Shown here: positions 3,774 through 64,000 of the stretch, piece by piece
Numbering within the stretch: position 1 is the stretch's first letter
Layout: each line of letters opens with the position of its first letter
DNA from: Lepraria neglecta
Lineage: Eukaryota > Ascomycota > Lecanoromycetes > Lecanorales > Stereocaulaceae
DNA length: 64,000 nucleotides
Direction of reading: 5' to 3'
Assembly: GCA_033220425.1 (NCBI GenBank)
Contig: CM065651.1
Location: 124,001-188,000, forward strand
Notes under the pieces: generated by a model
The model's input: the letters and a program-made list of their open reading frames with translations, nothing else
Database searches by the model: none
What the model was told of the DNA's origin: nothing
Made by a program: the position numbers and the translations under genes

Positions 3774-4980
3774 CTAGTTCTTCAGAAGATAGCTATTTCC
3801 CTGCTGCAACCATGCGACGGCATCATTGACCATCTCATCAACGATATCCTTGGCGGGCTTCCGCTCATTTATCGCACCACATGCCTTACCCATCAATAGA
3901 GGTGTGGCGTGTTTTTTCACGTCTTCAGGGACCTTGTCGCCTAGATTCTCGAGCTCATAATCGACAGGAATCTTGCCGCTGTCACAGAGCTGCTTGATCT
4001 CGGCTTGTCGGTTCTCTTCCCAATCCTGGATGTATGAATTGTTACGGACGCGGAGAGGACGGCCCTGCCACAGAGTCAGTGTACTGTCTAGCAAGTTGTA
4101 ACCTCTCTTCCCGGACTTTCTTACTGTGAAGATGATTGTTCGGACATTGTCATCGAAGCCTGCAGTTCGGATTGCTTCTTGATGCTCCTTAGAAGCACAC
4201 GACTCATCCGAGAGGACAAATCTAGTACCAATCCACACAGCATTTGCACCGAGCATAAGCGCGCTGGCTACGCCTTGACCATTGAACAAACCACCTGCAG
4301 CGATAACTTGAACGTCTTGTCCACTGGGCGACTTCTTACCTCTGCACATAGCAGCTATAGTTGGGATAAGGACACCAGTAGGGATGTCACCGGTGTGACC
4401 ACCGCCTTCACTACCTTGGGCGCAGAGCATATCAACGCCCAGGTCTATACATTTCTGGACGTGCTTAGGATGGCCAATCATATTCATATAGAGAAGCCCG
4501 TGTTTATGGAGCTTGTCGACAATCGCTTTAGGCGGAACACCGACGGCGGAGACGAAAAGCTTAGCGCCAGATTCAATGATGATATCGGTAAGCTCGTCGA
4601 GCCTGCCTTTGGTATAGTCGTGGCTAATGAGAATGAGCTGATCCATTCAGTAAGAGGTCCATAAAAAGATGCACCCACTTGGTCTTCCTCGCATTCCCGC
4701 CAATCTGCGGCAACAGTAAGTCGACACCGAAAGGTGTGTCCTTGTCGTTGAGGTAGCCTTTGAGCTCCTTGATCTGCTGGCGCAGATCGTCAGGCGTGTA
4801 TCCAAGACCGCCAATGACGCCGAAGCCGCCTGCGTTGGCTACGGCTGCTGCAAGTCTTGGCCCTGCCGCGATGTGCATACCAGCCAGCATAATAGGGTGC
4901 TTGATCCCAAGGAGATCCGTGGTAGGGGTCCTGATCTGCTCTAAGAGTGCTAGATTAGTATATGCATGACCTTCGGGCAC
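3774..4980 (-). CDS. Nitronate monooxygenase (2-nitropropane dioxygenase family)
   Basis: This is an FMN-dependent TIM-barrel enzyme that oxidises alkyl nitronates such as propionate-3-nitronate. Two exons are proposed: 4679-4980 and 3774-4623, with an intron at 4624-4678 (GTGGGT...TTAG). The splice restores the family stretch RKTNHDYTKG and gives 383 aa, a usual length. Visible motifs are LLGIKHPIMLAGM near residue 25, GGLGYTP near 57, the CAQGSEGGGHTGD loop with the probable catalytic His177, and AAGGLFNGQG plus GANAVWIGTRF for phosphate/FMN binding. The gene is divergent from the glutathionyl-hydroquinone reductase across a 976-bp promoter region. Family assignment is firm. The substrate is not known; detoxifying or processing a nitro compound of the neighbouring pathway is an inference. 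Confidence 0.9.
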
Positions 4981-5956
4981 TGGAGCGGCACACGTGGGGA
5001 TGCCATATCCTGCCTATGTCTGAGGATTGAGATCCGTTTGCTACTTAGTCAGTGTGTGAAAGATCTAAGGCCTATGTGTAGAGAGTTTGGGGAGAACAAG
5101 CGAGATCCGATCAATGACAAGATTTGTGTGCAAGAGTTTTCGTGTAGAGAGGATTTGGGGATAAGAAAACAGAGGGCCAAGTCATTCAATATATATTAGA
5201 TGAGTGCGGGAGTTTTCATGCTTGAATTATGTTACGGACCCACGGGATAAAGCAGAGAACCTGTGCTTGAAGCGGGCAGGACCTGCTTCGGTCAGAGCAC
5301 TAGGCTGTCAGCATTTAGTCATTTTGACACGTGGACACATTGTAGTGAATTTCAAATGATCGATATAGTCCTCCCGCGTTCCTCGTTGGTCAAGGATGCC
5401 TCCCCATGCAGTGCTGTCGCTAGGTGATCCACTGAGGCATCGGTATGACGATCCCGAAGCCCTGCGGAGAAGTTTAGCAATCACTTCTACTTCGTAATAC
5501 TTCCAGCGGGCTGAAGGGAAGGTTGTATCGGGATTATGACTGGGTAGTATATTTTTAGATCTATTGCGTTCACTCATAATCACATGACGAAGGACCTCAA
5601 CGTCGAGCGCCACCTCCTGATCGGAGAAACAAATTTCCGGATATTACTACAACGTCATATGAATCATCAAATGGGTGAGGAAGGAAGGGGAGGCGACAAC
5701 AGCGCCTGTACACACCTCTCCTTCACCATCCCATACGCATAAGATCCATTCCCCGCATACACTTATTGCGCTGGCCATTCATTTATACACATCCATCTTC
5801 CCAGGTCTGCGCCTGGCCTCACTCCATCACTCCGAAGTGCTCCGAGAAAGCGCTTTATAAATGCTTCACGATGACGGTAGGTTGAGGTGGAATGATATAA
5901 GCCAGGACCCTGGCTGACACTACACGCCTCAGACTCATGGAAAATCGTCAACTAAT
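4981..5956. promoter_or_regulatory. Shared divergent promoter region
   Basis: This 976-bp region separates the start codons of the nitronate monooxygenase (-) and the glutathionyl-hydroquinone reductase (+), so it must hold both promoters. I recognise no specific factor site with confidence, and no additional gene. Confidence 0.5.
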
Positions 5957-8406: not shown

Positions 8407-9132
8407 TTTGTCTTGGTTGATAAAATGAAATTTGCTTTTCTTTATGGTTCGAAACGGATTATCTTATTGAAGTAGAAGTGGTCCGTACAGGAAAAAGTCG
8501 TTGAGGGATATTCGGGGAAAGCAAGCTAGTTATATATTCAAAGGCTCTAGCTCCGTCGAACCCAAACGTCAGGCCCAGACGCCACACGTATTGTTAAGAG
8601 TGGAGAAGCTTACTTCATATTCCCCGTGCCTTGTCACTAGTGCTGATCCGGCATTGCAACGCATCGGGGAGGAATCCGAACTACGGCGTTAAAGTTAGGC
8701 TAGGTACATTCTAACCACACTTGGTGATATCATATTGCATTTTTCCTAGTGCACATCTGACATGGGCGTAGATCCTCAGGACACTGTCTCCTAGAGGCTC
8801 ATATTACGCATTCCAATACGCCATAACTTCTCGCTAGGTTCCTTCTTCGTCATGCGGCTATTAAAACTTTTGGTCCTTTCATAGCTCGCTGGACCCCACT
8901 TCCACGTCACTCCACTAGCTTATCTATTAGCACACCATCATGGTAAGGATTCTCAAGCATGATGTTACCACATCACCTGGTCAACTTCCTCCCCGCACTA
9001 TTGCTCAAAGGATATGATGTAAGGTCGCCGTCCCCTCCCTGGTGAAAGGGTATATAACACAGCTTTCTCACTTACCTGCGTTGATTGAGGGAAATAGCTC
9101 CAGACCAGTCACAGCGTACCACACGTACAATC
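8407..9132. promoter_or_regulatory. Divergent promoter region, oxygenase / BVMO
   Basis: This 726-bp region lies between two start codons. A TATATAA box at 9051-9057 lies about 75 bp upstream of the BVMO ATG at 9133. No comparable box is obvious for the minus-strand oxygenase. Confidence 0.5.
9051..9057 (+). promoter_or_regulatory. TATA box of the BVMO gene
   Basis: TATATAA preceded by a G-rich run, about 75 bp before the first ATG of the reading frame. The distance is normal for a fungal core promoter. Confidence 0.5.
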
Positions 9133-10992
9133 ATGAATAGCGCTTATCAGGATACAAAATACGATGAGAGGGGGCAAACGGAGCGTCCGCAGCCTATCTT
9201 TAAGAGAGATCTTGCCGATTACTCCCGCCGGAGAGGCACTACCGGACCATATGCTGACAACCTGGACATCGATGTTCTGATAGTTGGAGCTGGGTTTGGC
9301 GGAGTTTACCTGCTCCATGAGATGCGCAAATCAGGCTACAAAACTGTCATCTACGAAGCAGGTACAAGCCTTGGTGGTGTTTGGCGTTTCAATACCTATC
9401 CGGGAGCCCGCACAGACTCTGAGGTGCCAGGTTGGTCATACAGACTTCCAAGCCACTCTGGAACCTATTAACTTCTGGTCATCTTAGTCTATGAATTGTC
9501 TATTCCTGAACTTTGGAAGGACTGGACCTGGAGCACAAACTATCCTAATTATCAGGAGCTCCAACAATATTTCGACTATGTGGATAAGAAACTAGATCTG
9601 AGTAAAAATTGCGCCTACGAGACTGTAGTGGATGGTGCCCAATTCGACGAGGATGAGGGAAAATGGACCGTGACCACGGTCGATGGACGCAAGGCCAAGT
9701 GCAGATTCCTTATCATTGCAACCGGCTTCGCATCAAAGCGGTATATTCCTGACTACAAAGGCATCGAGAACTTCAAAGGAACTGTCCAACACGTCGCTTT
9801 CTGGCCGCCCGGTGGCTCCGATGTTCGAGGCAAACGATGCGCTGTGATTGGAACAGGCGCATCAGGCGTGCAAGTCATTCAAGAATGGGGCCCACTCGCC
9901 AGTGAAGTCAAGGTCTTCCAGCGAAGCCCTAACATGGCTATCCCTATGGGCAAAAGGGACCTTACTGCTGAAGAACAAAACCAGCTGAAACCTCTCTATC
10001 CGCAGCTTTTTGCTTTGCGTGAGAGAAACTTCGGAGGATATCACTTCGACTTTGCGGAGCAGAACGTGTTCGATGTGCCCACAGAGGAGAGGGAGGCTTT
10101 CTATGAAAAACTTTGGCGTCGCGGTGGTTTCTCATTCTGGCTTGGAAATTATAAAAATTATCTTTACGACATGAAGGCAAACAGAGACGTCTACAACTTC
10201 TGGGTCAAGAAGATACGCGCAAGGGTGCACGATCCACGCAAACGTGAGCTTCTCTGCCCACTCGAACCTCCTTTCCCGTTCGGAGTCAAGCGCCCATGTC
10301 TCGAGCAGAACTACTTCGAACAATTCAACAGGGATTCCGTTGACGTGGTGGACATTTCCAATAAGTCCGGCAACGGTATCCAAGAGTTCACTGAGACTGG
10401 TATCAAGACGACTGATGGAAGCCATTATGAGTTCGACTTCATTGCCATTGCAACAGGTTTCGATATCTCCACTGGCGGCATGACGAGCATGGGCCTCAAG
10501 AGCGTCGATGGCTTGAACCTTCAGGACGAGTGGAAATCTGCTGCTGTAAGTCACATCTATCCGCACGAATAGTCCAGAAATCTCTTCGTTGACATATGTG
10601 ACCTTTAGCTCACTTATCTTGGCACAACCGTTCCGCGATACCCTAACATGTTTTATTTGTATGGTCCTCATGGCCCGACTCTCCTCTGCAATGGTCCTAC
10701 AAGTGTCGAAGTTCAGGGTCGTTGGATCCGGGATGCAATCAATGCGATCAACAGGCAGGGATTGAAGTTCGTCGACCCAACTCCTGAGGCGAGCCAGGAG
10801 TGGAAGCAGAAGATCAACGACATCAGCAACACCACCCTTTTCCCGACTTGCAAGACTACCCATATGGGAGGCGATATACCTGGCAAGGCCTTCGAGCAGG
10901 TTAGTTATCCAGGAGGACTGGTTAGGTATCACCAAGAGCTTCGCGCTGCATTGCCCGATTGGAAAGGGTTCAGGACGGTGCAAGTGACTTAG
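9133..10992 (+). CDS. Type I Baeyer-Villiger monooxygenase (FAD/NADPH)
   Basis: This flavoenzyme inserts oxygen next to a ketone, giving an ester or lactone. Exons proposed are 9133-9430, 9488-10545 and 10609-10992 (introns of 57 and 63 nt), giving 579 aa. The first splice restores SEVPVYELSIPELWKDW and the second joins KSAALTYLGTTVP. The FAD site is GAGFGG (52-57). The BVMO fingerprint FxGxxxHxxxWP is present as FKGTVQHVAFWP (195-206). The NADPH site is GTGASG (221-226), and an ATGF hinge precedes the fingerprint. An upstream in-frame extension lacks an ATG, so 9133 is chosen. All key motifs are intact, and the gene looks functional. It is likely to act on a carbonyl intermediate of the surrounding pathway. 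Confidence 0.93.
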
Positions 10993-13085: not shown

Positions 13086-15323
13086 TTACCGCTTAAACTC
13101 CCCGAAACAACTCTTCAGCTGAGTGGCTGCGAACCAATATCCTCTACTGCAGTGCCTCCGCTTGGACTCGTCAAGCTCTTTCAGACATTCCTCTAGATTT
13201 TCCGTCTCCCTCCGCGTGATATTGCTTAGAGCATCTTTACTGCCTTGACACAGCAAGTTGGAAGAAGCTAGCTCACCATGCAAGCTTGTGAAGGCCATAG
13301 CCATGCCGATCAGCAAGCCTTTGTTCGTCAAGGGTCGCATGGCAAGCTGAGCCATCGTAGCCGCAGACTGGGAACCCCATTTCTCCAGCACTTCGTTTAG
13401 CGACCCCACCTCCGGGAATCCCCACTTGCGTAACAGTTCTTGTCCAATCTCAACGAGTCCCAGGTTGTCGGTCTTGTTTGCCTCATCCATCCCAGCGACC
13501 ACCCCGAACTCATTGTCAAACCCCGCCTGCGCTCGCAGGATCCTGACAATTGAGCAGGCAAACGGGCTTGTAGTCTTCCAGGGGATTGAGATGAATGTCT
13601 CTAGAAGACAAGGATGGGTAAACCACAATGGAAGGAATTTGGCAGGATCTGGCATTTCATTCACCCCGAACTTCAGTCCAAAAGGCGCGGCAGGTAGTTC
13701 CAATCTCGATGAGACAGCTGCGCTCGAAAGATTCTCGAGGGCCTTGAGAGACTGGCTGTTGGGGTAGTTGAGACTAAGATCTATCCTGGAGTCTGTCGGC
13801 GAGGTGAGATCGTCTTCTCGACCTGTAAAGTCCCAGTAGTGCTGAGGGCGCGAGCTTGGCATCATGTCAATCCATTTCTTCACAGCATCAGTTTCAGTTT
13901 TCGTGAAGGCTCCAAACATTCTTCCCTCCCATGACAGCTCTTTTACAAATCGACTTTTGCTGCTGTCACCTCTGTACACCCAGGACTTCGAACGGCTGAA
14001 GTTATGCAGGAAGTCCATCTGCCATTGTTTGGAATCCAAGTATGCAGGGTCCAGCCAGTCAAGCAGCTTCTTACCACCAATCTTGATGTCACTATGACTA
14101 TGTATCTTGTGACCGACGAGTGCTTTGGCTTTGAAGATCTTGATCACTTCCGCCTCCAACTCATTTCGAGGGAAGCTGTCCACAGCTGGTTTTCTCATAG
14201 ACGGGCATATCGCTTTGCCTGAAAGGCCATCCGAAAGGGTGTAGCCCACCTGGACTCTCCTCCATGCCTGCTGTGCGGCGGTAGCACCCTCGGCTCGGTG
14301 AATATGTTCGATGTACATGCACACAGCCTGCTGGGCTATCGCGGTGTGACCTGAGTCGGCGTTGTCGATCGAAACATGCAACATGAAGTAGTACGGGTCT
14401 AGATCGACCTCCTTTAGCTCTCTGGATGCCTTGAGGGTCTCCAATGTCAGAGCTTCAAAGTGCATGTTGAAACCAAGGATTTCTGGGAAGAACTCATGAG
14501 GGATCAGTGAAATGAGCAATTGTGCCAAAGCTGCTTTCCACACAGCTGGTTCATTCATTCCATATCGGGGGTGGATGAAGTCGGCTGTATCACCAGCTGG
14601 TAAGTCGAGCGTGACGCTTTTCATGAGTTCTCTGTAGACGTGGGCATGGTTCTTGTCGAGGTCTCCATCGCCCAGCTCCTCTGATAGTACTTGCCAAGAG
14701 TTCTTTATGACAGGGCGAAGTGCAAAGGGCAATGTGATCTTATTGACATAACCCAACCATGCCCCATCGACGTACTTCACTGGAGCAATCTGCTTCAGCC
14801 ACCACCGGGCCTCATCTTTATCTTTGAACAACTCCATATGTCCTCCTTTCTTCCTCCTCGCAACGTAGTCTTCCCATTGCTGATTGACCTTCTCATCTTG
14901 GTCTCGCATGAAACTCGTAAGTTCTTCCCGCGAGTAGGCATTTAGCCTTAGGATGCTGTCATCTGGCCGCTCTTTAGACGCCGTGTCAAGTGTCTCGGCG
15001 AAGAAAGCAATCAGCTGATTCCTTGCGCGAGGTAAAAGGTCCGGGAATTCCTCGAGGTTGTGTAACTTGTAGTACATATCTTTGTGGGCTGACATTTCTG
15101 GCGATGCGTCTTCATGGTCGAGTCGTACTGGGGGTTTGCTGTCGATAATTCTACTGTCTGTGGAGACTATTTTCGAGGGCTGTTTGGGCGCGGTATATCT
15201 CTCTCCAGCGGCAATGAACTTGGCTAACAAAGGTTGCTTGCCGTTGGGCTTGCGGAGTGACAATAACGCAGTCGCATAGCATACGAGAAAAGCAATCAAC
15301 AATGCAACGAAGATCGATAGCAT
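13086..15323 (-). CDS. Membrane-anchored haem-oxygenase-like iron redox enzyme (PF14518 type)
   Basis: This is a single uninterrupted frame of 745 aa. Residues 2-23 form a hydrophobic helix, probably an N-terminal membrane anchor. The core (about 200-340) has features of iron-containing redox enzymes with a haem-oxygenase-like fold: EELGDG followed by HAHVYREL (215-232), HEFFPEILGFNMHFE (276-290), and LHVSIDNADSGH (315-326) with Asp320 and His326. These His, Glu and Asp residues are placed as in di-iron oxidases (HDOs), which carry out N-oxygenation, C-C cleavage or desaturation. A C-terminal part of about 400 aa has FVKELSWEGRMFGAFT, which recurs in long members of the family. Nothing indicates decay. 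The family call is from motif recall; the reaction is unknown. Confidence 0.65.
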   Translation of the reverse strand: MLSIFVALLIAFLVCYATALLSLRKPNGKQPLLAKFIAAGERYTAPKQPSKIVSTDSRIIDSKPPVRLDHEDASPEMSAHKDMYYKLHNLEEFPDLLPRARNQLIAFFAETLDTASKERPDDSILRLNAYSREELTSFMRDQDEKVNQQWEDYVARRKKGGHMELFKDKDEARWWLKQIAPVKYVDGAWLGYVNKITLPFALRPVIKNSWQVLSEELGDGDLDKNHAHVYRELMKSVTLDLPAGDTADFIHPRYGMNEPAVWKAALAQLLISLIPHEFFPEILGFNMHFEALTLETLKASRELKEVDLDPYYFMLHVSIDNADSGHTAIAQQAVCMYIEHIHRAEGATAAQQAWRRVQVGYTLSDGLSGKAICPSMRKPAVDSFPRNELEAEVIKIFKAKALVGHKIHSHSDIKIGGKKLLDWLDPAYLDSKQWQMDFLHNFSRSKSWVYRGDSSKSRFVKELSWEGRMFGAFTKTETDAVKKWIDMMPSSRPQHYWDFTGREDDLTSPTDSRIDLSLNYPNSQSLKALENLSSAAVSSRLELPAAPFGLKFGVNEMPDPAKFLPLWFTHPCLLETFISIPWKTTSPFACSIVRILRAQAGFDNEFGVVAGMDEANKTDNLGLVEIGQELLRKWGFPEVGSLNEVLEKWGSQSAATMAQLAMRPLTNKGLLIGMAMAFTSLHGELASSNLLCQGSKDALSNITRRETENLEECLKELDESKRRHCSRGYWFAATQLKSCFGEFKR

Positions 15324-16302: not shown

Positions 16303-17682
16303 CTATGCCGTCTCAGGATAAGCCAATTTGTCAACGGCCTGCCATTCGGGATGATTTTTGTACATCTTGCGGACATGGTCGAGCAGATCATCGATTCCTT
16401 TAGCGACGGCAGCCTTGATTGCATCAGGTTGGATGCTGCCGTCAGCCAGGCTCTGCTCGACGTCGCTATAGGATGAGAAATTGCGGCACTTGCCATCTAC
16501 TTCCACCGTGAAGACCGCACCTTTGGCAGCAGAAGTCCCCATGGGTGTCTCACCATTAGTGTATCCAGCTCCATTAATCTCAGTCGTACCTAGCGCGTCC
16601 TGCTGTTCCAGCTGAAGCTGCGCGATGGGAATCAGGACGTTCTTGAGTAAAGAGAGGACGCCATTCTTGACCGTGTCAAGACCGTGCCATGGCGCTTCAA
16701 TAACCTTGCTTTTGACGGCTTCAACGTCGTCTAGAAACATGATCTTGGTTTTAGGAGGGTGCGACGATGACATCTTCGACCCGTGAAGATTGGGAATCAT
16801 AGGGTTCATCAAGTGCCCGCGCTCTCGATACCCCAACTGGGGAAGGAAGCGCTCAGCAAACGCAAAGATTCCTCGCTGTTTGTTACTGCGTTAGACCTTG
16901 GAAATACAAAGTCAAGCTTGTGAGGATGGCAATAGCCTTACCTGATCTGCGCCTCCAAACTGGAAGTCCACGTCCAAGTGTTCTTCGGCCAAGGTCTGAA
17001 TGACAGGGCAGAACATGGGGCTGAGCATGTCAGGATTGTAACTTCGATCCCATGCATCCTTGACCGCTTGCTGGGGTACCAAGGTACAGATCCTCCATTG
17101 GTCCATAATCCACTCCCTCGAGAATTGGTAAGACGACTCCTCCACAAAGGTCACTTTTGCCGCGGGAACTCCAATGGACTCGAGGGCGGCAATGACGATA
17201 AACTTGTAGTAGTACATGCGCTGCCTTACTTGTGACATGGGATACTTGACATTGTCGAGATAAGAGTACACGTCCAGAAGAACGACAACAATCTATTGGT
17301 TTGCGAGGTCAGCATGATGCGGCCAAAAGCAGAAGTAGACCGTTCGTTACCTCGACGCCTGCTTTTAAGAAGTCCGCAAATTTTAACAGCGGGACATAAT
17401 ACCCGACATGTGCTAGGGTAGCATCAGCAAATGAAGGAGACCTAAATTTCTGGCAGCACAGCCTGACTTACGTTTGCCTGTAGGTGATGTGACTGTGATG
17501 CAAGCATGTGAGCTTCTACTGCCATTGAGCCGGTGTGGAAGTTACTCGCCCCATAGACATTTCGGCGTTTTGTTGGGGTCTTCCAGCGCAGACCGAATTG
17601 CGCCAATGCCATGGACATCTTCTGGGGGAATTCCCCGGGTGATGAGGTCAAGCCTCTGATCCACTGACAGTGTGCTAGACAT
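16303..17682 (-). CDS. Tyrosyl-tRNA synthetase paralogue with altered amino-acid pocket
   Basis: Five exons are proposed: 17550-17682, 17472-17492 (21 nt), 17351-17412, 16942-17292 and 16303-16875, giving 379 aa, close to cytosolic TyrRS without C-terminal extension. Class I signatures are present: SPTGKPHVGYYVP (HIGH-type, 47-59), SYLDNVKYP, FQFGGADQ (182-189) and GSKMSSS (KMSKS-type, 221-227). Set against human TyrRS without gaps, Tyr39 is Leu43, Gly41 is Val45, Tyr166 is Cys167 and Asp173 is Ala174, while Gln170 is kept (Gln171). Tyr39 and Asp173 bind the substrate hydroxyl in the family. The first intron needs a GC donor (GCGAGT...ACAG, 57 nt); the other introns are GT-AG. It may be a self-resistance copy or an enzyme for another amino acid. 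The exon chain is intact otherwise. Confidence 0.85.
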
Positions 17683-18576: not shown

Positions 18577-20124
18577 ATGGAGGCGTCCATTGAAAGCAGC
18601 AACAACTTAGAGCTCAACAAGTACGATGTCGAGAAGGACGATGAGAGGACGACGGGTTCTGCAACGAAGAAGGAAGAAGGCGGTAGCGTCACTGGCATGT
18701 CTCTCACGCGGGAAATAGTTCTCGTTGCCGTCGTCTCCATGGCACAATTTTCGACCCAGGTGGGTGTTGGCGGGACTCTTGCCATCTTGCACATTATTGG
18801 GGATGATCTGAGTATTACCAAAAACGGAGAACTCAGCTGGCTCATGGCTGCCTACAGTCTCACGGTCGGGTCTTTCATTCTCCCAGCTGGACGACTTGGT
18901 GATGTCTTCGGCTACAAGAAAATGTTGCTCTTCGGTTTTTCTTGGTTCACACTCTGGACTCTGGTCGCCGGCTTATCTGTATACTCGAACCACGTTCTTT
19001 TCAATTTTGCTCGAACCCTGCAAGGTATTGGGCCTGCTATCTGCCTACCAAACGGTCTGGCTGTGCTAGGCAGCACTTATCCACCAGGACAGCGAAAGAA
19101 TATCGTCTTTTCCATCTTTGGTGCCACTGCGCCCTTAGGTTCTGTCTTAGGCGCTACCTTTGCGAGCTTGTTCGCGCTAGCTTGGTGGCCATGGGCATTC
19201 TTTTCTTTCGCAATAGTGCTTGCAGCAACAGCCATTGCTGGTGAATTGATCATACCTGCTCCAACTCGCAGAACGGATCCTAATCAGAGCGCCTGGCACA
19301 AGTTTTGCCAACTGGACCCTCTTGGGAGCACTACCGGTGTGACTTCTTTAGTCCTCATTGATTTTGCGTGGAACCAGGGTGCTGTAGTTGGTTGGCAGGA
19401 GCCTTATGTTATCGTCGCGCTCATTCTAGGAATCCTCCTGATACCAGTCTTCCTTTATGTCGAGGCCTACGTTGTTTCAGCGCCGCTGTTGCCGGCTGAG
19501 TGCATGAATAGCGACATTGGTACGATTCTGGCCTGTGTCGCTTGTGGATGGAGCTGCTTTGGCATCTTTCTGTTCTATATCTGGCAGTTCTTCGAGCTTC
19601 TCCGACATGCATCACCTCTAATGGCCTCCGCATGGTATTCCACAAATGCCGTCTCTGGCGCTGGGGCTGCGATTCTGACAGGTCTATTTCTCGACCGTGT
19701 CGGTCCCCCATTAGCAATGGTATTAGCCTTGCTCGCGTATGTTGTTGGTACCATCCTGCTGGCAACAGCTCCAGTGGACCAGATCTATTGGGCACAGTCT
19801 TTTCTCTGCCTTTTAATCATCCCTTTCGGCATGGACATCAGCTTTCCTGCTGCGACTGTCATATTGTCAAACGCAGTCCCAAAGGAACATCAAGGAATTG
19901 GGGCAAGCCTCGTCAACACCGTAGTCAACTTCAGCATCTCTCTAGGTCTTGGCTTTGCGGGAGTCGTCGAAGTGCACGTCAACAATGGAGGGAACTCACC
20001 AGAGGAGATGCTGCGAGGGTACAGAGGAGCTTGGTACATGGGCATAGGTCTTTCAGGGCTCGGTCTCACGATAAGTGTGCTGTACTGGATGAAGGTGCTT
20101 TTCAAACAAGGAAAGAAACAGTAG
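18577..20124 (+). CDS. MFS drug:H+ antiporter (DHA2-like exporter)
   Basis: This is a single exon of 515 aa. A charged cytoplasmic N-terminus of about 40 residues is followed by a long series of hydrophobic helices, about 14 by eye, as in DHA2-type exporters. Motif A of the superfamily appears as AGRLGDVFGYKK in the loop after the second helix. The FARTLQGIGPAICLPNG stretch (motif B region) and GATAPLGSVLGATFASL (motif C region) follow. Proteins of this type in fungi pump out toxic metabolites at the plasma membrane. It is divergent from TyrRS and convergent with the decarboxylase. The frame is complete. Its substrate is probably the cluster product, by position only. Confidence 0.9.
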   Translation: MEASIESSNNLELNKYDVEKDDERTTGSATKKEEGGSVTGMSLTREIVLVAVVSMAQFSTQVGVGGTLAILHIIGDDLSITKNGELSWLMAAYSLTVGSFILPAGRLGDVFGYKKMLLFGFSWFTLWTLVAGLSVYSNHVLFNFARTLQGIGPAICLPNGLAVLGSTYPPGQRKNIVFSIFGATAPLGSVLGATFASLFALAWWPWAFFSFAIVLAATAIAGELIIPAPTRRTDPNQSAWHKFCQLDPLGSTTGVTSLVLIDFAWNQGAVVGWQEPYVIVALILGILLIPVFLYVEAYVVSAPLLPAECMNSDIGTILACVACGWSCFGIFLFYIWQFFELLRHASPLMASAWYSTNAVSGAGAAILTGLFLDRVGPPLAMVLALLAYVVGTILLATAPVDQIYWAQSFLCLLIIPFGMDISFPAATVILSNAVPKEHQGIGASLVNTVVNFSISLGLGFAGVVEVHVNNGGNSPEEMLRGYRGAWYMGIGLSGLGLTISVLYWMKVLFKQGKKQ

Positions 20125-20484: not shown

Positions 20485-22413
20485 TCAATGTGAGGAATCG
20501 AGCGTAACCACCTCATGTACGATACGCTGTAACGTCGCTTTTGTAGTACAACCATTAACCACCACCCTGATGAAGCTACCGTGCGGCCCCGGCGCAAAGT
20601 CAATCATAAGACCTCGCGAACCCAGGCGATCACATATCGATCTAGTGTGCCGAGTCACTTCATCAACCGGCACCATGCTAATATCACCGCTTCCATCCGG
20701 CTGATGATAGAAGCACACCTGCAGGCACGGCGGCGGGAATGTCGAGACGAGGATCAAATCTGGGTGCTCGTGCACAAGTGAAGCTAGATATTGAGCGTTG
20801 TCGAATCCCGTCTCGACATAGCGACCCAATCCCTCGTAGCCTTGGTAGATCCAGCTCAGAGCCAGTTTTAGACTGTCTCCTTTCCGACCACACTGGAGCG
20901 TCGCATCCGCCAGATCCCAGCTGACCTCGTCGTCCTCGTCTGACTTCTGGTGGAAGAGATACCCGGCCTCGGATCTGTTGGCGCGCCAAAAGACCCGCAT
21001 GTCGCTGGCCAGCAGGAAAGAACAAGTGACCGGGACACCGAGCATCTTGTGTGGGTTCGTGGTGATACTGCGAGCTCTTTCAATACCCCGTAGCTTGTGC
21101 CTGTGTTTGTCGGAAAAGATAGCAGCACCCCCCCATGAGCCATCGACGTGCATCCACAAACCCTCTTTATCACAGAGGTCCGCAATTTCGTGCAACGGGT
21201 CACACGCGCCTAGGACCGTGGTTCCGGCGGTGGCGTTAACGAAGAAAGGTTCGTATCCTTGGAGTCGAGCTTCCTTCAAGAGGGACGTCAGCCGATCGAC
21301 TCGCATTTGTCCTTGCGCGTCCACCGGCACCAGCCACACGTTCCTCGCTCCGATGCCACAGGTTTGCGCTGCCTTCGTGATACTGTAGTGGCTATCTTGG
21401 CTTGTGAACACGACCAGGTTTCGGCCATTGTTGCCCTTGTGTCGTATCGCTGGGAACGCAGTGTTGCGTGCTATCACCAGTGCAGCAAGGTTAGATGCTG
21501 ATCCGCCTGGATGCGTGCCACCCCCGGCATGGGGACCTGTTAGGCCGAAGGAATTGGCGAGCTTTTGGCTTGTGAGTCTTTCGATGACGGAGAGTGCTGG
21601 GGAGACTTTGTAGACGTGGAGCTGTTTTTCACGAAGACACAAGTTAGCATGGGCCATCTCTGAATACACTAACAACCCTCATGACCAGACGCATTTTGGT
21701 CTGAGCTTATACGTACGTTGGTATTCAAGACTGCCAAGATCAACTCGCTGACGACTCCGATGGGATTTGTGGTTGCGTAAAGCTTGTGCAAAAAACCCTG
21801 ATGCCAGGTATTCACGGAGTATTGCAGAATTTTCTCCAATATGTCTGTCAAACCGTCCTTACCGAGGCCTTGCTCGGGGAGCACGAATCCGAGACACTTA
21901 ATGAGCTCTTTTGGCTCCAAAGGGATGATGGCAGAGACCTGATCGACCGGGTCTGGCATTGCGTTGGGGATCCCCTTGGGTGCATCTTGAGCCTGTTTCT
22001 TTTCGACAGAGATGTCGTGTAAGTCTGACGTTCCATTATTGATCCTTTCAGGTATATTTCCGTTGAACCCAATGGGTGGACCTTGAGCCTGTTTTTTATC
22101 GGCGTCGGCAATGAAAGGTATCAGAAGATCCTGGGTTGCCTTGAGGAGCTGGATGGAAGAGTCGAATTAGCAGCGTTTCCTTGGTATTGGTTCATGAAGT
22201 TCAGCTTTGTATCTTGAGATTTTGTCTTGCATCTCTCCCTTCTACTCCCTGAAAAATTGTTGTTGAAGCTTTCCATAGTGAAGGTGGACAGAGCAAGCTT
22301 ACATCTGCGGTCTCATGGGCGCGGTCAATATAATCGCCACCAGCATCGTTATGGCGAGTGCCATTAATATTAATGTGGCCATTTGTGAAGCTATGATCGA
22401 TTGAAGGTGCCAT
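20485..22413 (-). CDS. PLP-dependent group II amino-acid decarboxylase
   Basis: Three exons are proposed: 22303-22413, 21717-22148 and 20485-21621 (introns of 154 and 95 nt), giving 559 aa. It resembles glutamate/cysteine-sulfinate/aspartate decarboxylases: SVNTWHQGFLHKLYA, GVVSELILAVLNTNLHVY across the second splice, THPGGSASNLAALVIARN, HVDGSWGG (Asp341, PLP ring nitrogen) and TTNPHKMLGVP with the Schiff-base Lys373. His259 in SQDSHYS is the ring-stacking residue. Near residues 55-95 the motif KKQAQ recurs at about 38-codon spacing, a small internal duplication in an otherwise variable N-terminal region. The substrate is not determined; aspartate to beta-alanine, or a modified acidic or aromatic amino acid, are all possible. 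Confidence 0.9.
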
Positions 22414-25063: not shown

Positions 25064-25831
25064 AAGCACACCCTGGTTCACTAAACGAAACCTCCAAGCC
25101 ACTAGTACTGAGCCGACATCACTGGCACTATTAGCCGCACCTACAGCGGACCTTCGACCTAGGGTGGGGAATTCCGCGGGGTAAAATGCTCGACTTCAGA
25201 GGCGGGCATCCATTGTTTATCACACGTGTTGGTAATTTACTGGCTGATTATACAAAAAGATGATTGAACTCTCCACCGCTTAATCTTCATCCTTAACCCT
25301 TCACTGACAGAATCAAGCCTAGTTAAAAAATATATATTGTTTCACCTGATCACTAAGCCCGATTGGGATTGTTTGAGGCGAGGCTGCTCTTCAGGCCACC
25401 TGTCAGCCCTTACCTCTTTCTCATCTTACGACGGGATAGCCGCGATTTCACCATCCATCCCCGTGCTCAGGTTCTTCATCCTTCACCCTTGGCATGGCAC
25501 AGGCCCAGTCAGCAATGATGCCATCTCCCGACCCACTCGCGTCGCGTCAGCCACGGGCTTTGGGCGCCGGCGCTAGCTGACAGTACGGAATGGAGTTGCT
25601 TCCTCTGGCCTTCTATCGGCGGCAAGGTTGTTGAGGCGTCATGGTGAGGCCAGAACCGGTGGCAATTACGTAGACCCCCTGCAAGCAGCTTTTCATTTCC
25701 AAGCTCTTCCCATTTTCTAAAACTCCATCATCACCAGGCAAGATAAGATCCAATGCGTCACTGCGGCAGAAGGTAGGTTTGATCTTTTGACCGGTTTCAC
25801 ATCAAATAGATTTGACAATCGGATTGACAGT
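25064..25831. other. Upstream region of the coiled-coil gene
   Basis: No gene was recognised. The open frames here have no ATG-started similarity to known families. The region probably holds the promoter and leader of the gene at 25832. Confidence 0.4.
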
Positions 25832-28800
25832 ATGGCTCGGACCGCAGCTACTGACAGAGCTTGGGCGAGAGAGGAACTGGACAAAAAAAGTGCTCACATT
25901 CGGAGGCTTGAAGCAGAGAACGAGCAACTGCGGAGAGCGAACAGAATTATAGAAACAGAAAGGGATGAAACGATCAGAGTTTGTAGGGACCTTATAAAGC
26001 AAAACGGGCACTGCTGGCGCTGTCTGGAACGCCTCAACGCTAATAACAGGTACTTGCCGGTCGCGCCTACCGAGACTGAGATAAGTCAAAATCAGAATAC
26101 GGAATCTCCATTGGCGAAGAATCCTCGAGATCGTTATCGAGATAACATCCTACCTCGCGATGATCAGTGTGATTTATCTTCCGCCAGGAGCGCTACAACT
26201 CATCCTACATCAATTAACCTAACGGAGCCGTCAGCATCCATATTTGGCGAGGGTTTTAATGTCCTTACGGCTTCATTGACCACTGACTCAGTCCCGTCAG
26301 ATAGCAATGGCTCATCTTTGTTCACGGATGTGCCACCTAACCTGGATACTCAGCTTTCGCCTGCTTCCAGTTTTGAGGATCTCTCGCATGTACGCACGTC
26401 CAGGCATGCCTCATCTATTCCTAGTGGCCTACCCGAGGACGGCAGACGCGACAGGAGAGCAGGCTCGCTGGCACTCAGACACGGGCAACCGGCTTCTCCA
26501 GAACAAAATCCCTGTGATGAGGGCCAATTGGCCCAGTCGCGTCTTGCTCAAAGGAAGGATGAAGAGGGTTTAGGCGAAGGAAGCCTGCAGGCGAAGACGC
26601 CATTCCAGCACGGCAGGGTCGGTCATGGAAGGCGGTTCTCATCGGGAGCATCTTCTGACGTTTCGATGCAGTCTGTGTCGGAGCTGAGAGAAGAGAAGGA
26701 GGTCGCGGCAGAAGTAGGTTCTGAGGAGCTAAGCTCGGCCGACTCTTCGGACTCATCTTCAGCTGAGACAGATGAGGACTCTGACGAGGAGTCCGACGTA
26801 GACCCCGCTACTTCCGTAGATGCCAGTGAGGAGGCTAGAAAGGATACAGATTCCGATCATGCGAGCAGAGAAGGCTCCAAGGGGCTGCCTGGGGATCTCC
26901 GGCATTCTTCTGTTAGCCGCAACACCTTTGAACAGAATCCGCCAACTTTGCAACACCGTAATGGGCCGGCTAGACGAGGTTCAAATAGCCCCCAACTCTC
27001 AACTGAGGCTCATCCGGCGACAAGCGATTCGGGTTCACACAAAACTCGTTCAACTAGTGCTAGGGAGGTATCTTCGGCGTCCATAAGTCTGAAACCGAGC
27101 GCACCCCACATTCCAACAACCTTGGGGAGTCGAAGCTCGGCAACACTCGGTTCCAGTATACAGTCTCGGCCAACTCGAGCGACTCCGGCAGTATCTGCAC
27201 CGGCCACGGCTAGGCAAAGGTGTGACCGGCCTGCACATCATGGTGAGGAAGAAACTGATTCAGACCTGAAGACTGCGATTTGCGAAAGCTACGCGAAATT
27301 CGGGCTCAGCGGGCAGCGGCTGAGATTCTGCTATGAGCCTCAGACGCTAGATCCTACTACGATTAATCTAAATACCAATTGGAAACGGCGGTCCAAGCTG
27401 AATGAGTCAGTTGTTGAGAAGCTGCTACAGATGGGATCCGAGATTTCGGCCTTCCTTCCTCAATCGGACACTGGAAAGGCGATCAAAAAGGAAACAGACT
27501 TGATACGACGCCTGAGTAACTGCAATCGCACTCAAATGGCTTGCGGCAGCCTCAGGGAGGTTGTGGGAGCCCTTCGCCGAGAACGAGACGTGACAAAAGA
27601 TGAACTAAACCTCATCGAGTTTGAGATTTATTCCACGTTGATTGTTTTGAAATGTCAAAGCGAGGGCGAGGCTAGTCACTTGTCCCCAAATTTAATGACG
27701 TTCAATAAGCTGAGTTGAAGCAGTTCGAGGAAACGATCACAACATTTAGCGATTACCAATGCAACCTTCTCGGACTGTACAATAGTCTCCATATGTTTCT
27801 TGCACATCTCAACCAAGCCTGGCATGGCCTTCACCTCTTGGTGCTCATCTACCTGCGTTAGTAACTAACAACCACAACATACCTACCTATATTTACTGAC
27901 TGTTCGTGTCAAAAGTGCGGGTCGGTACTGGCAGACTCGTAAAGTATTTGGTTCCCACTACCCGACCCGCGGCAATTGAACTATTGCTCCAAAAATTTGA
28001 AAAGCCTGAACTTATGGCGAAGTACCGCAAGAGGCTCCATCACCTTGTTTCGCTGTCCGGGCCGGCTTGCACGACTCATATTCAACAAGTGACCCCACTC
28101 AGAAGGCTTCAAGATCGGATGGCTGGGGTAGTAGAGTGAGTATGAAGCAATATGGTTCCAGTATATCGCTAACACAACAAGGCCTTCCATTGTCCGATCG
28201 GCTCTAGGATATAGCCATCGATATCAGAGCGATACTGAATTGGACTCACCGCGGCCACTTCTTTCGACACCCAAGGCAATTCCCAACTACCCGCGCACGC
28301 TCACTACTCCAAGCGAACGTCATGATGCCTACAATACCTTGCACGGTGGGGGCACTGTCCGTTCCACATTACAGAGCGGCTCGCAAAACATGGACACGCC
28401 TCGTCTGACGGCAATGGCCGAGCGGACAGGACTCAGAAAGAGCGTTTATGTCGATCCCAACGAGGAAGATGGAGAAGATAACAATAGGCCTGCTAGTAAA
28501 CGGCGATGCGGCGTAGATCGTGTGAATGACTATGACACTGGCTGTGCGATTGACGATGCTGCGACGCCGATTTCAGAAGGTACGCCTTTACACAGATGGT
28601 TTGCTTGGGAGCAATGACCCGTGGCTAACCATTCATGCACTTGGTAGGTTTCCAAGAGGCGACCGGAGTCCAATCGTCGGCGGAGTTTATGGAACAGACG
28701 GGAGAGGAGTCTGGAGCAGAGACTCAGGGCGACTCTGGATATGGCGGTAAGTGCTGGAACCCTTTCTGATAGGCTCGGGCTGATCATATAGCATCAACTG

Positions 28801-31715: not shown

Positions 31716-33533
31716 TTAGCGGCTTTTTGCTGTCTTCTCTCTGTCTCTCAAAACCTTCCTCAGAATCTTTCCACTTGCACTCTTCGGAATCTCAGGAACG
31801 GACTCAAATTCCGTCACCCATTTATACTTTGTCTTCCGCTCCTGCACATATCTTTTTAGTTCGTGCCAGACGTTCTCTTCCCCATTGACTGCCTGTTTCA
31901 GCACCACAAATGCCTTCGGCAATTCTCCGCTGTACTCATCCGGAACGCCGATGACACCGACGTCTTGAACCTTGTCGTGACCCAGCAGGAGGTTTTCTAG
32001 CTCTGCAGGTGCGACAGCAATACCTTTGACCTTGATCATCTCCTTGATGCGGTCATGAATGGTAACGATGCCATTGCAATCGATCGATCCAAGATCGCCC
32101 GTACGCAGCCACCCGCCATCGACATTGAACGTCTCACGCGTCGCCGTCTCGTTATCCAAATACCCCATGACGACCTGTGGACCCTTTGCGAGGATCTCTC
32201 CAGGCTCATCGACATCCGCTTCTGAGCCATCGTCCTTTTTGATCCTGAATACAGTGTTCGCCAAGATTTGGCCGACGCTGTAGGCGTACTTGAGATCGTA
32301 AAGCTCCGGCGGGAACCCGGTAATGCAACTCGTGGTTTCCGTCATCCCATACCCGTTTTTGAATCCCGCGCTGGGAAACTTCTTGGCTAGCAGCTGCATG
32401 ACTTTATCACTCACTGGTGCTGCGCCGGAGCTGAAGCGTTTCACGCAACGCAAATCGTAATCGTTGACGATAGGATCGTGTAATAGACGGATGAGAAGGG
32501 GCGGCACCACGAGGAGCTCTTCAATCTGGTAGGCGCTGATGGTTTTGAGCATAGGCGCCATGGAGAATTTGGGCAGCATGATGACTTCGGCGTTGAGAAG
32601 AATGGGCAGGTGTAGGGTGTGTACCAGGCCACTGATGTGATAGAAAGGCAACACCGCGAGAGTCTTCTTTTGGGAGGCGGGCGTTATTTGACGAGCTTGG
32701 GACACCTGGGCGATGATATTGTGGTGGCCAATCATGACCTATGGTACGAGTAAGCCTTCAGGAACCAACAAGAAGAGTCCTTGTGAACGTACGGCTTTTG
32801 GCAGTCCAGTTGTCCCAGAGCTTCAGTTCTCGTCAGCAAATATCTGCCATTTCTAGCTGTTCCCATGACTAACCTAAGGCATAGGAGGCCACAGACTTCT
32901 TTGTTAGTTTTACCCGACGGGATTTTGAATGACTGGACTTGTCCGCCACTGCCAAAGCTCCTGCCAATTTCCACCAACTCCTTGATGGACGCATGTCCCT
33001 CTGCCTTCCCTTCCAGGAGGAGGACATGCTCTTTGGGAATTCCAGCTTGGTGAGCTGCCTCCAATGCAACCTCAATCGATGCCGGATTTGTAGCAATGAA
33101 TTTTGCCTTTGCTGTTTTCAACGCGTATGTCATCTCCTCTACATTGTACGCGGGCGAGGCGCCGCTGACAACACCGCCGAGGCGGACAACACTGAACATC
33201 GCTACAGGGTACCATATTGTGTTCCCGCTGAAGAGCGTGATCGTGTCAGTAGTTCGAAAATTGTATCTCTTGACAAGAGCTGTGGAGACATATGTAGTCG
33301 CCTCTTTTACTTGGGCCCAGTTCAGGCGCTCTTTGGTTTCAGCGTCAACATAGCCAGCGAGTTCATGATCTGGGTAGCATCTAAGCGGCGACGACGAGGA
33401 TTCGAAGAGCCAGTCCCACACAGCGATATCTGTCGGCACTAGGATACGTGTCAGTGTGCTGGCTTAATTGGGAGGAAATATAGACGCAGGTCATACAATC
33501 AATGTCGGGCAGCCTGGATTTGAAGAGGACCAT
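31716..33533 (-). CDS. 4-Coumarate-CoA-ligase-like acyl-CoA synthetase (AMP-binding)
   Basis: This ANL-family enzyme activates a carboxylic acid as acyl-AMP and then acyl-CoA. Exons proposed are 33497-33533 (37 nt), 32874-33438, 32793-32820 (28 nt) and 31716-32738, with introns of 58, 53 and 54 nt, giving 550 aa. The tiny first exon supplies MVLFKSRLPDID, joining to LPTDIAVWDWLFE as in 4CL-like proteins. The 28-nt exon encodes most of the P-loop SSGTTGLPKA (201-210). Other core motifs are GYGMTET (339-345), GGWLRTGDLG, the IHDRIKEMIKVKG hinge and the catalytic Lys in SASGKILRK. No peroxisomal SKL-type tail is present (ends AKSR). All motifs are intact. The acid it activates is unknown. Confidence 0.92.
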
Positions 33534-63193: not shown

Positions 63194-63356
63194 TGTTGCA
63201 ATGGCAGAAAATACTTAATTAACTAACTAGCTAATGGATAGGAATCTATAGAGTACTAATAGACATCTCTGTCTGTTTGCTAACACTTCTGCCTGTGACT
63301 AGCGGAGAAGGACAATGGAATCGCATAAAGAGTAATTAGGCAACCAGATTGCAACA
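63194..63356 (-). repeat. Copia 5' LTR (163 bp) and primer site
   Basis: Followed by target duplication GATTT at 63357-63361. Just inside it on the minus strand, GGTTATAAGCCCAG could pair with the anticodon arm of initiator tRNA-Met if one base is a RIP change; this is the half-tRNA priming known for Copia. Confidence 0.75.
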
Positions 63357-63361
63357 GATTT

Positions 63362-64000
63362 CCTGATAACCTCTATCGAGAGTTGCTGCAATGAAGTGTT
63401 CGCTATCAGCTCTAAGATCGCTAACGCAGCCTCAAACTCTCGTAGAAGCCAATTACGCATCTTAACCGCTACGAGGGAGTCTATACCGTACTCTGATATG
63501 GATCTTGACGGGTTGACGTCTTCCACCGGAATTATTAAGAGGCTTAACGTCTTAGAAGTAAGTTCCTTACAAGCTTTATAGGCTGCTTCCTCCAGCGATA
63601 TCGCTTGCTTAAGAGTCTTATGTATACGAGGAGCTATATTTCCCTCTTGATCAGTCTTTCGCGAGCTCCCTATCGCTGCGCGACGAAAATGCGAGAACAA
63701 AGGAGCCTGGAAGACCGGGTCGGCAGTTTGCGACTATGCTTTGAGACCGATGATGGTAGAGCCTGGTCCATGCGTTCTTAATGGTGTGAGTATTGCCGAC
63801 TTGATCATGGCTATCACCTCGTTCTCACGGAGGTTACGGCTCCATAGTCCTCTTATACCTCTCCGCGCAGAAAATCTCTCAGCGACAATTCCAATGTCGA
63901 CGACTTTCCCTAGGTCAAGGGTGACTGCGGGCAGTCCCTGGCGATTACGGAAATCAGTAAAGGCATCTTGGAAGACGGAGGCGGAAACATATGCAGCCTG
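63362..64000 (-). pseudogene. Highly reducing polyketide synthase, KR-ACP end, disrupted
   Basis: The minus-strand frame enters from beyond the window with the end of a ketoreductase domain (SYVSASVFQDAFTDF, then GLPAVTLDLGKVVDIG, the fungal HR-PKS pattern). A linker with FQAPLFSHFRRAAIG follows, then a complete acyl-carrier domain with the phosphopantetheine site in YGIDSLVAVKMRNWL. Two lesions are visible. An in-frame TAG lies in the KR-ACP linker (about 63737-63739), and a Copia insertion after the ACP removes the last residues. Composition is normal, so RIP has not spread far into it. The rest of the gene lies to the right. Confidence 0.8.

Follow-up and report, generated by a model that had tools for sequence, protein, structure and literature searches.

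Does a gene that reads as a tyrosyl-tRNA synthetase (TyrRS), and that sits beside an oxidase gene and near a decarboxylase gene, still serve tyrosine? The question is raised by a 64,000-nucleotide stretch of the Lepraria neglecta genome (the window; its contig is 4759350 bases long and the genome 42 Mb), in which a minus-strand gene at 16303..17682 codes for a 379-amino-acid (aa) protein in five exons (17682-17550, 17492-17472, 17412-17351, 17292-16942, and 16875-16303), recognized by Pfam PF00579 and by its homologues. The genome also encodes a separate canonical cytosolic TyrRS (L001), so the window protein is a paralogue, as a first-pass annotation made from the DNA letters had proposed, and the idea that it is the sole TyrRS of this genome is rejected. 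Its amino acid pocket is rebuilt in a manner conserved across a fungal subfamily; that it derives from a TyrRS, was repurposed after an ancient duplication or acquisition, and now serves a small-molecule pathway by adenylating some acid that is not tyrosine is the account we favor, at somewhat better than an even chance.

The tyrosine pocket of the Lepraria paralogue

Alignment with human TyrRS places Leu43 of the Lepraria paralogue at Tyr39, Val45 at Gly41, Cys167 at Tyr166, and Ala174 at Asp173, with Gln171 (human Gln170), Gln188, and the HIGH-type and KMSKS-type motifs retained; all four replacements, and the retention of Gln171 and the two signatures, had been listed in the first-pass annotation and are reproduced here. 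That annotation assigned the replaced residues to recognition of the tyrosine hydroxyl, which holds for Tyr39 and Asp173 and not for Tyr166: in the available part of PMC11723616, the phenol hydroxyl in Methanocaldococcus jannaschii TyrRS is bound by Tyr32 and Asp158 and the substrate backbone by Tyr151, Gln155, and Gln173, and Tyr166 (M. jannaschii Tyr151) reads the alpha-amino group. Thirteen of the 14 residues given there as lying within 5 Å of the substrate were usable, with the numbers mapped by us. Eight of these 13 shell positions are changed in the Lepraria paralogue (human 39, 41, 43, 72, 74, 77, 166, and 173) and five are unchanged (human 40, 42, 170, 188, and 191).

The hydroxyl end of the pocket is apolar, and Gly41Val, Ala74Leu, and His77Tyr gain bulk. 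Residue volume summed over the 13 positions, a crude measure, is 1891 Å3, compared with a canonical mean of 1852 Å3 (1816-1854, n = 97) and a range of 1789-1894 Å3 in the paralogues with complete coverage of these positions (n = 19). These values give no support to a Lepraria pocket simply enlarged to admit a bigger aromatic, Gly41, Ala74, and His77 all having been replaced by larger residues; a hydrophobic substrate of about tyrosine size or smaller would fit the Lepraria pocket better than a larger modified tyrosine, as far as crude volumes indicate, and some related paralogues may have a roomier pocket. The paralogue scores 129.5 bits against NCBIfam equivalog NF006330 (cut-off 220) and 76.7 bits against TIGR00234 (cut-off 113.8), and six of six paralogues tested fall under both TyrRS cut-offs, with five of five canonical controls above them. 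Its profile matches are to Trp/Tyr-class models only, and it does not score as an adenylation domain of the methionyl-tRNA synthetase (MetRS) type.

A TyrRS-paralogue subfamily in Pezizomycotina

The gene is not an oddity of this island: it belongs to a TyrRS-paralogue subfamily found in several classes of Pezizomycotina. Among the best 120 of 945 protein-search matches, on which the family counts rest, there are 25 paralogues including the Lepraria query (the public model P0002 being excluded from all counts), and the pocket replacements recur among them. They come from Lepraria, Lasallia, Sclerotinia, Stromatinia, Mollisia, Cladophialophora, Fonsecaea, Glutinoglossum, Rhypophila, Daldinia, Hypoxylon, Aspergillus, Paecilomyces, and Macrophomina, genera that we take to span six classes, and from four metagenome or archive entries without an organism name. 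Several public entries of the subfamily are labelled tyrosine-tRNA ligase, and because of these names it has possibly been overlooked.

Position 173 is Ala in 25/25 paralogues and Asp in 97/97 canonical TyrRS sequences, and position 166 is Cys in all 24 paralogues that cover the site (Tyr in 97/97 canonical). Similarly, position 77 is Tyr in 22/23 paralogues and Phe in 1/23 (His in 97/97 canonical), position 129 is Phe in 23/25 and Trp in 2/25 (Tyr in 96/97), position 41 is Val or Ala in 21/21 (Gly in 97/97), and canonical Ala74 is likewise replaced; position 39 is more variable, with Leu in 15, Phe in 4, Ala in 1, and Tyr in 1 of 21 paralogues. The motif KKAGAEVVKQV of connective peptide 1 (CP1), a segment that touches the tRNA acceptor stem, occurs in 0/25 paralogues, is exact in 79/97 canonical sequences, and has near-matches in the other 18. 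The block at 140-160 is 3 residues shorter in 23/25 paralogues and 6 shorter in two fragments. Of the 120 positions strongly conserved in canonical enzymes, 24 are retained in no more than one-fifth of paralogues and 50 in at least 90% when representatives below 90% identity are compared (21 paralogues and 64 canonical); the 50 include Gln182, Asp187, Gln188, and the residues of the HIGH- and KMSKS-type motifs. Loss of the anticodon-loop motif FCEEGN was discarded as evidence, since the canonical Lepraria TyrRS also lacks it.

A tree of 19 of the 25 paralogues and 35 of the 97 canonical sequences places the paralogues in one clade (100/100) on a long stem adjoining Agaricomycetes TyrRS. The clade groups with four basidiomycete-side sequences, three of them named Agaricomycetes (99/95), nearer forks being weaker, and joining it to the canonical Lepraria enzyme and P0109 is rejected (p-AU 0.01). 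The paralogue would have arisen long ago, by duplication or by acquisition, between which a tree with long branches and barely sampled canonical Pezizomycotina does not decide. Because the replacements recur through a 25-sequence group forming one clade, they are more than chance, and because the tyrosine pocket is rebuilt in so conserved a manner, a preference for tyrosine is unlikely, in line with the first-pass proposal.

The predicted structure of P0001 (full length, 83% identical to the Lepraria paralogue, and from a different source) has a pLDDT of 90.4, and the model has a TyrRS fold with both catalytic and C-terminal domains; the fold alignment, A1, covers 21 paralogues and 19 canonical sequences. 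Engineered M. jannaschii TyrRS variants are among the fold matches of the model.

In a branch comprising P0018, P0019, P0021, and P0108 (Aspergillus, Paecilomyces, and Hypoxylon), Gln170 is replaced by Pro. Because Gln170 is lost there, specificity may differ within the subfamily, with this branch acting on a different substrate.

Proposed function and alternatives

The paralogue lies upstream of, and adjoins on the same strand, a single-exon gene at 13086..15323 (minus strand) coding for a 745-aa haem-oxygenase-like dimetal oxidase (HDO; PF14518, E 2e-33, and homologues). A gene for a pyridoxal phosphate (PLP)-dependent decarboxylase, resembling glutamate, aspartate, and diaminobutyrate decarboxylases (20485..22166, minus strand, splice sites and start approximate; PF00282 and homologues), lies upstream of the paralogue. 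The TyrRS fold, as modelled, and the motifs for ATP-dependent adenylation are retained in an enzyme whose pocket is without the hydroxyl acceptors and the Tyr contacting the alpha-amino group, and whose canonical CP1 motif is lost. Because the ATP motifs and Gln188 are kept and the side-chain pocket is rebuilt, adenylation of a different, probably hydrophobic, (amino) acid is proposed. A small-molecule nucleophile, whether an amine, an alcohol, or a hydroxylamine, would then take up the activated acyl group; its synthesis would involve the HDO and the decarboxylase encoded nearby, these genes being the reason for proposing a pathway with amine formation and oxidation. tRNA may be dispensable, and the whole would amount to a ligase derived from an aminoacyl-tRNA synthetase (aaRS) in a small metabolic gene cluster.

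Linkage of these genes elsewhere was judged from equal contig sizes, not from reading contigs. The Lasallia pustulata paralogue P0003 is on a contig of 112195 bases, as is the HDO P0185 of that species, and relatives of the HDO and the decarboxylase are on equal-sized contigs in six other records (35614, 100577, 21884, 33253, 14135, and 349361 bases). Exons shorter than 208 aa could not surface in the paralogue protein search; therefore, that no paralogue was seen in the other HDO and decarboxylase records is uninformative.

Several observations weigh against such a pathway. Among the matches listed, equal-sized contigs for HDO and paralogue occur only in Lasallia, and no decarboxylase is on a paralogue-sized contig beyond the window. 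Because the HDO family has 862 matches against the 25 paralogues seen, most HDOs are without a paralogue and the adjacency may be incidental. The regions upstream of the HDO gene, the TyrRS/MFS (major facilitator superfamily) gene pair, and the decarboxylase gene have no common 8- to 10-mer, and no acceptor enzyme (a cupin, a GNAT protein, or a VlmA-like transferase) was seen in the 30 window frames scanned with Pfam. Tyr39 is retained in P0019, and the C-terminal domain, which binds the anticodon in TyrRS, persists in the structural model, making tRNA binding possible.

A narrower and decidedly speculative version of this ligase proposal is a fungal aaRS-derived pathway to an N-N bond (hydrazine or azoxy), which would be the first such pathway and a TyrRS-built, independently evolved eukaryotic counterpart of valanimycin and MetRS-like/cupin logic. 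The decarboxylase would yield an amine, to be converted to a hydroxylamine by the HDO or a flavoenzyme; the TyrRS-derived enzyme would adenylate a hydrophobic acid and esterify the hydroxylamine, with rearrangement giving the N-N bond, and the invariant Cys of the amino acid site might hold the acyl group as a thioester.

The alternative that survives best, unlikely as we judge it, is that the paralogue still charges tRNA, placing a non-tyrosine amino acid on it for use by a pathway enzyme, in the way that VlmA draws on seryl-tRNA in valanimycin synthesis. The predicted fold is that of an entire TyrRS, C-terminal domain included, and natural-product pathways with aminoacyl-tRNA donors are described in the available parts of PMC6331615 and PMC11705231, but the CP1 motif is missing from every paralogue, the 140-160 block is shortened, and no transferase is among the 30 scanned frames. 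Because the CP1 motif is gone, a tRNA-independent ligase is ranked first.

More doubtful is a regulatory, RNA-binding, or ligand-sensing protein on an old fold that has ceased to catalyse. Paralogues of aaRSs without aminoacylation activity are known, and both the pocket and CP1 are rebuilt; however, Gln182, Asp187, Gln188, and the residues of both the HIGH- and the KMSKS-type motif persist as described above, which would not be required of a dead enzyme. Very improbable is a self-resistance copy, active while the island product poisons TyrRS, an option raised in the first-pass annotation for a tyrosine-mimic product. Additional aaRS copies in gene clusters are sometimes resistance genes, a second copy does stand beside a canonical one here, and the SB-203208 cluster was discovered by such reasoning (PMC6331615, in part). 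This explanation is disfavored because a resistant housekeeping TyrRS still has to bind tyrosine, and the Asp173 and Tyr166 contacts are lost in all members covering these sites, with all tested members below both equivalog cut-offs.

Last and least probable by far, an artefact of the gene model in which different exons would bring back the canonical residues is rejected: the deposited model P0002 (OEA41_008592, 325 aa, identical to part of the paralogue and lacking the HIGH exons) does disagree and intron 1 does require a GC donor, but Cys167 and Ala174 are internal to exon 4 (residues 73-189) and present in P0002 too, Leu43 and Val45 are found again in P0001 and in P0003, and the canonical gene has an intron at the same position. 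The rebuilt minus-strand five-exon model agrees with the first-pass coordinates. Its first intron (17493..17549, minus strand) is of the GC-AG type and matches in codon and phase an intron of L001, TGG G|; an alternative GT donor at 17545, four bases downstream of the GC, breaks the frame with the same acceptor. The joined sequence CLWVTSPTGKPHVGYYVP is also present in P0001, and LWVTSPTGKPHVGY is carried by both P0001 and the Lasallia protein P0003. Truncation of OEA41_008592 is probably due to the GC-AG intron.

Comparison with known systems

Human YARS1 and yeast Tys1 differ from the paralogue at Tyr39, Gly41, Ala74, His77, Tyr129, Tyr166, Asp173, and CP1, the paralogue being below the equivalog cut-offs. 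We know of no orthogonal tRNA role for the paralogue. Engineered M. jannaschii TyrRS variants for noncanonical amino acids have the same hydroxyl-binding positions replaced, Tyr32 and Asp158 (PMC11723616, in part), whereas the paralogue is natural and clade-wide, with the Tyr151, Ala67, and His70 sites changed too.

The valanimycin pathway has a decarboxylase, a dedicated seryl-tRNA synthetase, and a transporter, and a decarboxylase, an aaRS-type protein, and a transporter are likewise clustered in the window. It also uses a flavin N-hydroxylase, VlmA acting with seryl-tRNA, and the HDO VlmB (PMC11705231, in part), and the window shares a flavin monooxygenase and an HDO with it; unlike in that pathway, no VlmA- or VlmO-like gene was recognized in the scanned frames, and N-N chemistry is only proposed here. 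The bacterial MetRS-like/cupin hydrazine synthetases perform tRNA-independent, aaRS-derived adenylation from a biosynthetic locus beside N-oxidizing enzymes (PMC11705231, in part). The Lepraria locus resembles them in having an aaRS-derived protein, for which adenylation is proposed, near enzymes of N-oxidizing type; it differs in its aaRS ancestor and in being fungal, and no cupin partner is among the 30 scanned frames, though introns split genes there. SbzA of SB-203208 biosynthesis is an isoleucyl-tRNA synthetase (IleRS)-like aminoacyl transferase whose amino acid is unchanged and whose donor is aminoacyl-tRNA (PMC6331615, in part); the shared theme is an aaRS paralogue beside a canonical copy, turned (as proposed here) to a small-molecule acceptor, and the differences are the TyrRS rather than IleRS family and the changed amino acid pocket.

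Since aaRS-derived enzymes in metabolic loci are already known, what would be new is the TyrRS ancestry and the fungal kingdom, and the matches listed in the open-licence literature include no description of a fungal biosynthetic enzyme derived from TyrRS. The subfamily is a natural, ancient aaRS rewritten at the pocket positions that protein engineers alter, recurring in several ascomycete classes, and its substrate would reveal how new chemistry becomes open to an enzyme that is essential and highly specific. It is possibly a new class of fungal amide or ester (or N-N) ligase, and naturally evolved TyrRS pockets could serve genetic-code work.

Neighbouring genes

The HDO gene product is the sole match in a search of the genome, and its residues E215, E216, H226, E281, E290, H316, D320, and H326 are invariant in 111/111 aligned relatives (120 listed). 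SznF has the metal-ligand set E215/H225/E281/H311/D315/H318 (PMC11705231, in part); the order of acidic and His residues is similar, but the last His is 6 residues past the Asp here and 3 in SznF; the invariant residues are candidate metal ligands. No solved structure resembles the HDO in sequence at E values up to 1, and no relatives of the HDO or P0003 with DNA context were found in viral contigs. The Orbilia oligospora relatives P0210 and P0213 are annotated with an extra class I/II aminotransferase domain (PF00155), which in P0210 is N-terminal; this may be a true fusion or two genes joined in the model.

An MFS transporter gene (18577..20124, plus strand, ATG at 18577; PF07690) is upstream of and divergent from the TyrRS paralogue, and the adjacency suggests that it may act in a common pathway. 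A flavin monooxygenase of Baeyer-Villiger/FMO-like type (9085..10572, ends approximate, plus strand; PF00743/PF07992/PF13450) is a possible island member, as are a 2-oxoglutarate oxygenase and a glutathione S-transferase that, with it, lie further left of the HDO gene. On the same side and close to the island, two minus-strand frames at 3774-5013 match nitronate monooxygenase (PF03060), which would fit nitro or N-oxide chemistry.

About 10 kb from the island is a minus-strand AMP-binding ligase with PF00501/PF13193 in frame 31716-32738; frame 32732-33463 is the putative start of this ligase (31716-33463). A 665-aa open frame at 25721-27715, charged and Ser-rich by eye, has no Pfam match, and no tRNA genes were found within the window. 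The region 36000-62000 is AT-rich (31-43% GC, versus 44-53% at 2-36 kb), with few long frames, and is perhaps a decayed repeat region. At 63302-63733 is a phosphopantetheine/acyl carrier protein domain of the highly reducing polyketide synthase type, which may belong to a polyketide synthase starting beyond the window end.
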